NCBI GenBank assembly: GCA_947624255.1
Contig: CANQJO010000002.1
Location: 124,001-188,000, forward strand
Length of the DNA: 64,000 nt
Direction: 5' to 3'
Source of the DNA: an uncultured Ruminococcus sp.
GTDB lineage: Bacteria > Bacillota > Clostridia > Oscillospirales > Ruminococcaceae
The notes under the pieces are model-generated. The model searched no databases, was not told where the DNA came from, and saw nothing but the letters and a program-made list of their open reading frames with translations. A program made the translations under genes and the position numbers. Numbering within the stretch: position 1 is the first letter of the stretch; each line of letters starts with the position of its first letter. Shown piece after piece: positions 19,306 to 55,887 of this stretch.

Positions 19306-19454
19306 AGTATTGAATCAATGTGTCCGCCCTCCGGAAAGCTGTCATGATTTTCCCGGAATGCTTCTGCCGGAGGTAAAGGACTTCCGTGAAATCGGCTTGT
19401 CTCTGCCGTAAAGAGACGGCTGCGGCTGCGAGGCTGCGGATTATGGAGTTTGTT

Positions 19455-21707
19455 ATGGATATCACACTTGTCACTTCTACATTCAATGATGACGTTCATG
19501 GTACTGACAATGATAAGAAAACGGGCTGCGGCATAAGCCTGATAAAGCCGGAGAATGTCGCAAAATACCGCAGAGGAAACAAAATGACCGACCTCAAGGA
19601 GATCACCTGCGAAAAATGTAAATTTGCTCTCTCGAAAAAGATGATAAGAGCTGACAAGAAGGAAATGTCGAAGATCATCAAGGAAGAAAAAATGAGAGCT
19701 AAAAAGGGCATTGAGGACGACTCCATAGTGCCGCTGGGCAATACAGTCGCTAAGATGACAAGCGCTCCGGCTGAAAAAAAGGAGGAGAGATCCTCAGCAC
19801 CGCAGGCTGAACCCGTTCATGTGAGTGAACCTGAGAAAAAGCCTGAGCCGAAGGTGATCTCCGGAACAGGTATCGCTATTGATGACGATCTTGCTCAGTT
19901 TGCTATCAACGTTCCGAAAGAAGAACCGCCTGTTCAAGAGCCGGAGGAGAATGAGGACGACTTCCTTGCGCAGTTCGCAGTTAAAACTCCTGCCGAGGAG
20001 GAAAAGCCGCAGCCTCACGTAAATGTTCAAGACGATTTCCTTGCCCGGTTTGCGATTCCTGCTCCCGGCAGCGAGCCTGTGTCGGACGACGGCGGAATGA
20101 ATGATATTTCAGCTCCGGCAGAGGATCGGAGCTACACTCCCGATGACGATGATATAATGAATATGTTTGCTGTGGAGACTAATGCCGAAGAACCCGAAAG
20201 CTCATATGAGCAGGAAACAAGCACTGCTGATGAGAAGTATAACGATACATATGCCGATACATATGATGAAGAAGAACCGGAGATCGACTTGACAAGCGTA
20301 TCCGAATGGGATCTGGTAGCAAATCAGATATTCGGATTTGAAGGAGTGGACAACATTCCTCAGCAGGAAGAAAAAGAGATGGAAGAACTCCCTGTGCCCG
20401 AAACGGAGAATATTGCTCCTGTTGAGGAAGCGGCAGCACCTGTGCTTGAAGATATTCCTGTACCGGAGGAGATCGCCGCTCCCGTGATCGAAGATATTCC
20501 TGCACCGGAGGAGATCGCCGCTCCCGTGCTTGAAGATATTCCTGCACCGGAGGAGATTTCCGCTCCCGTGCTTGAAGATATTCCTGCACCGGAGGAGATC
20601 GCCGCTCCCGTGATCGAAGATATCCCTGCACCGGAGGAGATCGCCGCTCCCGTGCTTGAAGATATTCCAGTACCGGAGGAGATTTCCGCACCCGTGCTTG
20701 AAGATATTCCAGCACCGGAGGAGATCGCCGCACCCGTGCTTGAAGATATTCCCGTACCGGATGAGATTTCCGCACCCGTGCTTGAAGATATTCCTGCGCC
20801 GGAGGAGATCGCCGCACCCGTGCTTGAAGATATTCCTGCGCCGGAAGAGATCGCCGCACCCGTGCTTGAAGATATTCCTGCGCCGGAAGAGATCGCCGCT
20901 CCCGTGATCGAGGAGGTACAGGATACTCCCGTACAGGCAGAGCCCGAAAGAGCTCCTGCGCCGCAGAGAGCTCCCGCACCTCAGAAAGCTCCCGCACCGC
21001 AGAAAACTCCTGTGCGCAAGACAGTTCCTCAGCAGAAGAAGTCTGCTTCTAAGGCAGGCGATATCTCAGTAGAGACACAGATAATCAGTGTACCGCAGAT
21101 CACCGGATACGATGAAACAGGTATGCCTGTATATTCATATGTTCAGATGAGAATGAGCGGTCTTGATACAGATGGTCAGCCGATCTTTACTCCGCTGCCG
21201 GGACAGCCTGTTATGCAGACTCCTCCTGTTGCTGAACCATCAAAGAAGCCAAAGGCAATAAAGCCGGCCGATCCCAATGCTCCCTATGAGACACCTACGG
21301 CAAACATCTCAAAGATAGCCGTAAATTCGCACAGCAAGTCCACATCACAGGCTTTTGTAAATGCTATAGCAAGCTCCAAGGAGTACGCTAACAAGAGCCT
21401 GACCGAAACACAGGGTATGCAGAAAAACGCACCTCTCCTCACCTCTATCGAAGATGTTCTTTCACAGCTCGGTGATAACACACTCAAGAAGAAGAAGGAG
21501 ATCGCCCGGAAAGAAGTTCCCGTATATCAGGAGTATAAGAGCACTCCGAAGCCTGCTGCTTCAAGACCTGCCGCATCTGCTCCCAAACCGCCGGCACCAC
21601 AGGAAAAAGATGTACGGTTTATGTCGAAGAACGAGCTGAAAGCTAAGAAGAAGCAGGACAAGATAGATGCTAAATTCAAAAAGGATATGGCGAAGAGAGG
21701 TCTTTGA
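19455..21707 (+). CDS. Repeat-rich hypothetical protein: N-terminal Cys/His-containing domain, acidic Pro-rich middle, 14-aa tandem repeats, basic C-terminus
   Basis: Long ORF with coherent composition; MDITLVTSTFNDD...TGCGISLI...CEKC N-terminus. Start could be 19443 or 19455. Confidence 0.75.
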   Translation: MDITLVTSTFNDDVHGTDNDKKTGCGISLIKPENVAKYRRGNKMTDLKEITCEKCKFALSKKMIRADKKEMSKIIKEEKMRAKKGIEDDSIVPLGNTVAKMTSAPAEKKEERSSAPQAEPVHVSEPEKKPEPKVISGTGIAIDDDLAQFAINVPKEEPPVQEPEENEDDFLAQFAVKTPAEEEKPQPHVNVQDDFLARFAIPAPGSEPVSDDGGMNDISAPAEDRSYTPDDDDIMNMFAVETNAEEPESSYEQETSTADEKYNDTYADTYDEEEPEIDLTSVSEWDLVANQIFGFEGVDNIPQQEEKEMEELPVPETENIAPVEEAAAPVLEDIPVPEEIAAPVIEDIPAPEEIAAPVLEDIPAPEEISAPVLEDIPAPEEIAAPVIEDIPAPEEIAAPVLEDIPVPEEISAPVLEDIPAPEEIAAPVLEDIPVPDEISAPVLEDIPAPEEIAAPVLEDIPAPEEIAAPVLEDIPAPEEIAAPVIEEVQDTPVQAEPERAPAPQRAPAPQKAPAPQKTPVRKTVPQQKKSASKAGDISVETQIISVPQITGYDETGMPVYSYVQMRMSGLDTDGQPIFTPLPGQPVMQTPPVAEPSKKPKAIKPADPNAPYETPTANISKIAVNSHSKSTSQAFVNAIASSKEYANKSLTETQGMQKNAPLLTSIEDVLSQLGDNTLKKKKEIARKEVPVYQEYKSTPKPAASRPAASAPKPPAPQEKDVRFMSKNELKAKKKQDKIDAKFKKDMAKRGL
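20435..20914 (+). repeat. 42-bp tandem coding repeat (APVLEDIPAPEEIA, 11 units plus a partial)
   Basis: Counted directly in the translation; unit variants V/I, A/V, A/S, E/D. Confidence 0.9.
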
Positions 21708-22898: not shown

Positions 22899-23126
22899 TA
22901 TACTCCTCTCTGATGTAAACGCCGACTATCCTGCCGATATATACCACCCTCTAATGCAATTTGCATCAAAGGACGGTATAAACATAAAATTTTTCTTATT
23001 TTACAGGAATTGCTTTTACAAGCATTTTAAGTCGGGTCGAAAATCCGGTATAATATATTCGGAGCTTTTTTCTCGTGTAGAAAATCGTGTTTCTCCGCCC
23101 TATAAAACGAATAGAGGAAATGTATT

Positions 23127-24524
23127 ATGAAAAAATTTTTATCAATTATAGCTTCGGTGATACTGCTGCTTCCCATTATGAGCACATTAAAGGCAAAGGC
23201 ACTGAATTTTCCGATGACGACACCGATAAACAGCGAGTCAGCAGTGCTTGTGAATCTTGATACGGGAACGATCGTTCACGAAAAAGATGCCGATGCAAAG
23301 CAGCTTCCCGGTCCGCTTGTAAATATCATGACAGCAGTAGTTGTGCTGGAAAATTGTGATGATCTCAGCAAGGAGATAACTCTTGATCCCGATGTGTACA
23401 CTCCTGTGTACAATGCTATGGACGATCCCGATGATCTGCCGAGTGTTGATCTCAATGACGGAGATGTTCTGACCGTTGAGGATCTGCTCTACTGTATGAT
23501 GCTTACATCGTCTGTTGAGGCATCGCAGTCGCTTGCATATTATGTGGGTGAGAGCGATCCTGATAAATTTGTGAAGATGATGAATGATAAAGCGGCAGAG
23601 ATCGGCATGAATAATACAAAATTCACCAATGCTCACGGAATGTTTGATGCAAACCAGTACACGACTGCAAGAGATATGGCAGTGCTCACACAGTATGCGC
23701 TGAATGTTCCGCTTTTCAGTACGATCGCTTGTACAGTGACGTACAATCCCGTAGTGCCGAATCCGGATCGTCACCCGAATCACAGCACATGGCTGTGGAA
23801 ACACACGAATATCATGACGGATCCTGATGATGATGAATACTACATGGGAGCAAAGGGCATCAAGACAGCAAATCTTACAAAGGCAGGACGAAATATTGTT
23901 GTTGAGGCAAGCAAAGACGGCAACAATTATCTTGCCGTGCTGATGAAAGCACCGTTCAGTGATGCTGACGGAAATGCCACGTTTTACCATATACAAGATG
24001 CCTGTACGCTGTTCGACTGGGCGTTCAGCAGTTTTTCTTACAGAGTCATACTCGACAAGTCAACAGAGGTAGGTTCGTTGGAGGTCACTCTTGCTGACGG
24101 CAGAGATTATATTCTTGTCAGACCAAAGGACGAGGTCCTGATGCTGTGGTGCGATGACATTGATCTGAAGCTGATCGACCGTCCGACACCGAAATTCTAT
24201 AAGGATTCGGTTCAGGCGCCCGTAAAAGCCGGAGAGCCTCTTGGCACGCTGACGCTCAGTTATTCCGGAGAGGAGATAGCTACTGTTGAAGTAGTAGCAG
24301 TCAGTGATGTCAAGAGATCATTTTCAAAATATAATCTTGAAGCGGCAAAAAGATTCATCGGCTCAAAGTGGTTCAGCACAGCGTTGAAGATCTCGATAAT
24401 ACTGAGTCTGCTGTATATTGCATTATGTATATATTCGCTGATAATGTTCAAGCGCCGTGCAAAGCCGTTGAAGCCGGTATATGCAGTTCCGAAAATCAAC
24501 AAGAAGAAGAAAAACGATAAGTAA
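23127..24524 (+). CDS. DacA-family (peptidase S11-like) membrane protein with degenerate active-site motifs
   Basis: Signal peptide, S11-like fold signatures (IMTAVVVLE, NAHGMFDANQYTTARDMAVLTQYAL), C-terminal TM; the SxxK, SxN and KTG motifs are replaced. Confidence 0.85.
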   Translation: MKKFLSIIASVILLLPIMSTLKAKALNFPMTTPINSESAVLVNLDTGTIVHEKDADAKQLPGPLVNIMTAVVVLENCDDLSKEITLDPDVYTPVYNAMDDPDDLPSVDLNDGDVLTVEDLLYCMMLTSSVEASQSLAYYVGESDPDKFVKMMNDKAAEIGMNNTKFTNAHGMFDANQYTTARDMAVLTQYALNVPLFSTIACTVTYNPVVPNPDRHPNHSTWLWKHTNIMTDPDDDEYYMGAKGIKTANLTKAGRNIVVEASKDGNNYLAVLMKAPFSDADGNATFYHIQDACTLFDWAFSSFSYRVILDKSTEVGSLEVTLADGRDYILVRPKDEVLMLWCDDIDLKLIDRPTPKFYKDSVQAPVKAGEPLGTLTLSYSGEEIATVEVVAVSDVKRSFSKYNLEAAKRFIGSKWFSTALKISIILSLLYIALCIYSLIMFKRRAKPLKPVYAVPKINKKKKNDK

Positions 24525-55149: not shown

Positions 55150-55887
55150 ATGCCAAAGGTATTTTTAAGCCCCTCTACACAGGAGTGGAATCAGTATGTC
55201 ACTAACGGCAATGAGGAGCTTTATATGAATCTGCTTGCTGACAGAATGGAACCATATATGCGCTCCTGCGGAATAGATTTCATAAGAAACGATCCTGCAA
55301 GAAACGTCAACGGCGCTATACAGGACTCCAATGCAGGAAGCTACGATGTTCACCTTGCCCTGCACACAAATGCAGCTCCGGAAAGACTCGCCGGCAAGCT
55401 CAGGGGCATAGATATATATTTCGCTCCCGGAAGCGCCGACAGCGAAAGGCTCGCCAACATTATCGCCAATAATCTGAAAAGCATTTATCCGCTCCCGGAT
55501 AAAGTGAGAGCCGTTCCCACCACAAATCTCGGTGAAGTTCTAAGAACAAAAGCCGTTGCCGTACTATGTGAGCTGGGATATCACGATAATTATGCCGATG
55601 AAGCATGGCTCAAGAATAATCTTGAGGCTATTGCAAAAAATCTTGTTCGGTCACTCTGTGATTATTTCGGCATTCCATTCGTTGCAGCCGGAGCTGTTCA
55701 GTGGGGGACAGTCGTTACTGACGGAAGCGGTCTCAATATCAGAAACTATCCCGGTCTCACAGGAGCGATCATAGGAACGATCCCCAATGACGCTACCGTT
55801 ATGATAGACGGAGAAACAGGAAACTGGTATGTGGTGAACTACAACGGAAAAACAGGCTATTCAAGCAAGGATTTTATTTATCTCTGA
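55150..55887 (+). CDS. N-acetylmuramoyl-L-alanine amidase-like (Amidase_3) protein with C-terminal SH3 domain; no signal peptide
   Basis: VHLALHTNAAP, VLCELGYHDNYADEAW; SH3 TDGSGLNIRNYPGLTGAIIGTIPNDATV. Confidence 0.85.
   Translation: MPKVFLSPSTQEWNQYVTNGNEELYMNLLADRMEPYMRSCGIDFIRNDPARNVNGAIQDSNAGSYDVHLALHTNAAPERLAGKLRGIDIYFAPGSADSERLANIIANNLKSIYPLPDKVRAVPTTNLGEVLRTKAVAVLCELGYHDNYADEAWLKNNLEAIAKNLVRSLCDYFGIPFVAAGAVQWGTVVTDGSGLNIRNYPGLTGAIIGTIPNDATVMIDGETGNWYVVNYNGKTGYSSKDFIYL

Follow-up and report, generated by a model that had tools for sequence, protein, structure and literature searches.

A protein of 465 amino acids encoded in the 64,000-nucleotide stretch of Ruminococcus DNA analyzed here (the window) is very probably a conserved pseudoenzyme, judging by its sequence and those of its relatives. 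It has the fold of the S11 DD-carboxypeptidases, and the Ser and the Lys of its SxxK box are both replaced. The explanation that we favor, with modest confidence, is that it is a membrane-anchored pseudo-DD-carboxypeptidase which serves as a cell-wall-binding scaffold or regulator. Together with the orthologues described below, it would form a clade of S11 pseudoenzymes, within a subfamily that has lost the motif recurrently.

Architecture and catalytic boxes of the protein

The features of the gene, all on the + strand of the window, are as follows.

23114..23119, +, Shine-Dalgarno-like GAGGAA, 7 bases 5' of the ATG (sequence reading)
23127..24524, +, candidate pseudo-DD-carboxypeptidase ORF, 465 aa, S11/PBP5 fold (ORF list, Pfam, AF2 model, Foldseek)
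23127..23201, +, signal peptide or N-terminal helix, residues ~1-25 (MKKFLSII...AKA, predicted by eye; model helix 2-18)
23307..23336, +, replaced SxxK box, P61-G-P-L-V-N-I-M-T-A70, with Ser changed to Pro63 and Lys to Asn66 (alignment to motif)
23508..23519, +, replaced SxN box, S128-S129-V130-E131, with Ser kept and Asn changed to Val (alignment to motif)
23862..23870, +, replaced KTG box, K246-T247-A248, with Lys and Thr kept and Gly changed to Ala (alignment to motif)
24033..24317, +, C-terminal beta domain, PBP5_C-like, residues 303-397, conserved above the catalytic fold in the genus clade (Pfam, column identity)
24366..24458, +, C-terminal transmembrane helix, residues 414-444 (model helix, hydrophobic sequence)
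24459..24521, +, basic tail KPLKPVYAVPK...KKKK, presumed cytoplasmic, conserved in the genus (alignment)

Pfam matches Peptidase_S11 at residues 33 to 275 (E, 3.9e-40; 138.3 bits against a cut-off of 27.6) and PBP5_C at residues 309 to 397 (E, 2.5e-6; 28 bits against a cut-off of 21.2). By fold and homology the protein belongs to the S11, low-molecular-weight penicillin-binding proteins, with a full-length S11 domain, PBP5_C and a C-terminal anchor, and it falls below the cut-offs of the NCBIfam equivalogs for DacD (105.1 bits against 610) and DacA (77.6 bits against 694). Its sequence matches are B. subtilis DacB, the K15 DD-transpeptidase and PBP5-type structures. An AF2 model built on 25 same-genus sequences has a mean pLDDT of 84, and a Foldseek search of the PDB with this model recovered PBP5, PBP6 and DacB at E values of ~1e-24 to 1e-27, with target TM scores of 0.80 to 0.82 for B. 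subtilis DacB (3mfd) and 0.85 for the Streptomyces K15 DD-transpeptidase (1skf), which has the same fold. The Pfam matches and the model helices bear out the S11 scaffold and the C-terminal transmembrane anchor that the first-pass annotation had described and are compatible with its signal peptide, and the structural matches agree with its assignment to the PBP5/DacA type. An antisense ORF (23238-23996, -) was considered as a gene and nothing was found to support it. A promoter scan around the ORF returned a few consensus-like sites, none above a shuffle-plausible level for any one site.

PBP5/DacA, PBP6/DacC and B. subtilis DacB (MEROPS S11, PF00768 plus PF07943) have in common with the window protein a signal peptide, the S11 fold, PBP5_C and a C-terminal membrane anchor. 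Unlike them, the window protein lacks SxxK, has altered SxN and KTG boxes, and has a full transmembrane helix with a conserved basic tail behind it. The K15 DD-transpeptidase, an active enzyme in which SxxK is intact, differs from the window protein in this as well.

An active S11 DD-carboxypeptidase has SxxK, SxN and K(T/S)G, and each of the three is altered here. In the alignment, V130 falls on the Asn of SxN and E131 on the D/E of SGND/SACE. The position, strand and three motif readings of the first-pass annotation were confirmed; its statement that all three motifs are lost applies in full to SxxK, but the Ser of SxN and the Lys-Thr of KTG remain, both in this protein and in 87/87 orthologues. 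Intact motifs elsewhere in the protein, which the annotation had held would count against its reading, were searched for. The strings S.N, KTG and KSG are absent from the entire 465-aa sequence. S..K strings start only at residues 19 (signal peptide), 393 and 398 (juxtamembrane), all outside the penicilloyl fold. Of these strings, the juxtamembrane S398..K401 is kept by 86/87 orthologues. No substitute for SxxK, SxN or KTG was thus found in the penicilloyl fold. S11 enzymes need SxxK. Because the nucleophilic Ser and the general-base Lys are gone, acyl-enzyme chemistry should no longer be possible, and from the loss of SxxK and established enzymology we infer that the protein is catalytically inactive as a DD-carboxypeptidase.

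Conservation in the genus and repeated loss of SxxK in the subfamily

Near-full-length orthologues (E < 1e-150) are present in 88/100 Ruminococcus genomes; named carriers in the genome collection are Ruminococcus flavefaciens ATCC 19208, YAD2003 and YL228 and several Ruminococcus MAGs. The gene is missing from the other 12 of the 100, two of which are 99 to 100% complete, and it is therefore dispensable in some species. Among the 87 orthologues that were read, the general-base Lys is lost in all (Asn in 85, Asp in 2), and the nucleophile position is Pro in 72, Ser in 6, Gln in 4, Thr in 3 and Ala in 2, so that Lys is lost even where Ser is kept. The Ser of SxN and the Ser that follows it are invariant (87/87), and the Asn is replaced mostly by V, I or M and also by Y, F or other residues. 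In KTG, the Lys and Thr (the equivalents of K213 and T214) are kept in 87/87, and the Gly position is Ala in 59, Gly in 21 and Ser in 7. Nine positions that are at least 85% conserved in the canonical subfamily are changed in the genus, five of them within the SxxK and KTG boxes.

The loss of the motifs, taken alone, would be compatible with a recent pseudogene or a sequencing error in one genome. The same substitutions occur genus-wide in open frames, and dN/dS is 0.015 to 0.09 (Nei-Gojobori; closest pairs, at ~88% amino acid identity or more); these results refute local decay, to which we assign a negligible probability. The replacement box, PG-x-LVNIM, is found again and again in the genus, which is more than chance or sequencing error would produce. 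The first-pass annotation had supposed an intact frame under selection, and this is what the shared substitutions, the dN/dS values well below 0.1 and the intact catalytic paralogue (below) indicate; orthologues with canonical motifs, which would have pointed to recent local decay, were not found among the 87 from the genus.

Relatives extend beyond the genus. They were found in 116/149 genomes of the family by a single-protein search, in 130/199 genomes of the order by an alignment profile and, at a stricter cut-off, in only 15/196 genomes of the class. By subfamily we mean these proteins of ~450 aa with a PBP5 fold, a transmembrane helix and a basic tail, present in about two thirds of the sampled genomes of the order. 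Outside the genus most members are intact, with PASLTK, SxN or SxC, and KTG, and scattered others lack the Ser, the Lys or both. Of the 35 SxxK-negative relatives outside the genus, 31 keep the SxN Ser and 31 the KTG Lys; the Thr of KTG is present in 23 and the Gly in 22. On a 165-row tree (motif columns excluded, quick search, long branches) the intact/lost label changes 14 times, 7 of these forced by supported branches. A more careful tree of 45 rows, hand-picked once the first was available so that the lost lineages would be represented, has 11 changes, 8 of them forced, and 9 to 11 in bootstraps. A single origin of all SxxK-negative members is rejected on the 45-row tree (AU p, 5e-43). SxxK chemistry thus appears to have been lost repeatedly while much of the ligand-facing pocket was retained, with loss taken as the direction of change given that S11 proteins are in general catalytic. 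This raises the possibility, which we put forward tentatively, that the subfamily has a primary non-catalytic job at the wall that predates the loss of catalysis, and that catalysis, being dispensable, was dropped independently at least 8 times, most completely in Ruminococcus.

The retained residues could also belong to an altered enzyme, a weak or different hydrolase in which the SxN Ser (S128) and the KTG Lys (K246) form a relocated nucleophile/base pair. S128, K246 and T247 are invariant in 87/87 orthologues and are mostly kept in the other SxxK-lost lineages, as this would predict, but ligand binding or the fold would preserve the same residues, and the pocket-shaping SxN Asn and KTG Gly vary. 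We know of no S11 enzyme with such a relocated pair, which also counts against this explanation, and we regard it as quite improbable.

Several observations concern the intact members. About half of the catalytically intact members outside the genus (46/103) have Cys for the Asn of SxN, which we take to be the variant found in K15. One genome (G213) has two subfamily copies (L069/L070), one intact (PASLTK) and one SxxK-lost (PGALVD), a natural pair of enzyme and pseudoenzyme; two copies also occur in G324 and G365.

Shift of constraint and proposed role

The window's own genome has four S11 genes, and one of those besides the pseudoenzyme gene is a canonical DacA. This close DacA-like S11 paralogue occurs in 57/60 genus genomes, and its motifs, SxxK (MASTTK), SGND and KTG, are intact in 30/30 read. 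Mean column identity was compared for three regions: the catalytic fold without its motifs, the C-terminal domain and the tail. In that order, the values are 0.85, 0.58 and 0.45 for this active paralogue, 0.70, 0.77 and 0.71 for the pseudoenzyme (87 sequences), and 0.79, 0.68 and 0.60 for a canonical subfamily clade represented by 8 sequences from related genera. The fold and the C-terminal domain differ in opposite directions in the two proteins (Mann-Whitney p, 1e-17 for the active paralogue and 0.025 for the pseudoenzyme, within which alone the shift is modest). Compared with the active paralogue, the pseudoenzyme is less constrained in the catalytic fold and more so in the C-terminal domain, the membrane helix and the tail, as expected for an interaction scaffold. 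The motif columns of the pseudoenzyme stay conserved at 0.84, and the pocket has therefore not simply been abandoned.

It is plausible that the protein has a binding or scaffold function that needs no catalysis. The protein would be secreted and anchored by its C-terminal membrane helix, displaying a PBP5/DacA fold devoid of acyl-enzyme chemistry. Because the floor of the pocket (the SxN Ser and the KTG Lys-Thr) and the surrounding loops are still conserved, these elements would probably dock the stem peptides of peptidoglycan and leave them uncleaved. The C-terminal domain, the membrane helix and the basic tail, which are the parts most constrained relative to the active paralogue, would probably hold partner proteins. 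As a scaffold or regulator, the protein would then work at the membrane, where it would position or restrain wall hydrolases, either an amidase or its active DD-carboxypeptidase paralogues. This specific role in the control of wall hydrolases, to which the constraint shift, the membrane anchor, the neighbors and the precedents point, falls somewhat short of an even chance in our estimation.

The same conserved pocket, together with a basic tail that is generic, would suit a purely structural or wall-binding protein, the fold of which does no more than attach to peptidoglycan or hold membrane and wall apart and has no partner to regulate. The C-terminal domain, helix and tail are conserved beyond what a passive binder would need, and far above the active paralogue, and we consider this explanation unlikely.

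Precedents exist for the scaffold or regulator that we propose. Csd2 of Helicobacter pylori, of the M23 family, has a degenerate site and forms a heterodimer with Csd1 (PMC5053510). Like the window protein, it combines a peptidoglycan-hydrolase fold with a degenerate active site, and the paralogue with which it pairs has an intact one (PMC5053510); it differs in having a LytM/M23 fold and a demonstrated partner, whereas the partner of the window protein is proposed from sequence. E. coli PBP4 without its nucleophile, PBP4(S62G), still reaches midcell (PMC9166362). A survey of prokaryotes lists 42 inactive serine-protease homologues among five families (PMC2605481); these likewise lack catalytic residues, and the families covered are S1, S8, S12, S14 and S16, not S11. 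Our search of the open-access literature, with subscription journals and preprints outside its scope, found no description of an S11 or penicillin-binding pseudoenzyme family of this kind.

DD-carboxypeptidases are textbook enzymes, yet mutants that lack them are often healthy, and their cellular purpose is still under debate for that reason. If our interpretation is correct, a lineage that has repeatedly given up the chemistry and retained the protein would indicate a function of the fold as such, which could then be studied without interference from catalytic activity. Automatic annotation will label these proteins as D-alanyl-D-alanine carboxypeptidases and penicillin targets, almost certainly wrongly.

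Gene neighborhood and other S11 genes

In most genus loci the pseudoenzyme gene adjoins a divergent gene of ~201 aa, metallophosphoesterase-like by eye and without a Pfam call, and TspO is often next after it. The usual convergent neighbor is an Amidase_3+SH3_3 gene, and R. flavefaciens loci have a GH25 gene nearby as well. Because these neighbors are divergent or convergent and not in one operon with the pseudoenzyme gene, a partnership with them is only hinted at. The window genome is arranged otherwise, with a TPR gene upstream, cobalamin genes downstream and a homologue of the amidase 31 kb away:

55150-55887, +, Amidase_3 + SH3_3 protein, homologue of the usual genus neighbor (domain match)

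The first-pass annotation had suggested that the protein may be linked to the adjacent TPR and 14-aa-repeat genes. All are on the same strand and adjacent in the window, with 228 bases between the TPR gene and the ORF, as a functional unit would be. At 30 other genus loci and at the named Ruminococcus loci, with flanks of up to 10 kb, neither gene accompanies the orthologue, and this largely refutes such a unit, which we now hold to be very improbable. The repeat protein (19386-21707, +) has 773 aa with repeats of ~14 residues (APVLEDIPAPEEIA) and no Pfam or NCBIfam match.

A second S11 protein with altered motifs is encoded elsewhere in the window's own genome:

contig C30, 8743-9864, S11 protein with altered motifs (L314; orthologues L315-L325)

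Its motifs are GYLxK, NAN and FKA(C,S,A), with Ser changed to Tyr and Lys kept, SxN changed to NAN and KTG changed to KA[CSA], and it is conserved in 41/50 genus genomes. Ruminococcus thus maintains a pair of distinct S11 proteins in which the catalytic motifs are altered and which degenerated separately. The second degenerate S11 gene lies on contig C30 in a group with a canonical S11 gene and a VanY-like gene. In six genomes (G019, G044, G046, G048, G082 and G088) the pseudoenzyme gene and a canonical S11 gene are ~13 to 15 kb apart on one contig, and in G019, G044, G046 and G048 that contig also carries the second degenerate S11 gene.
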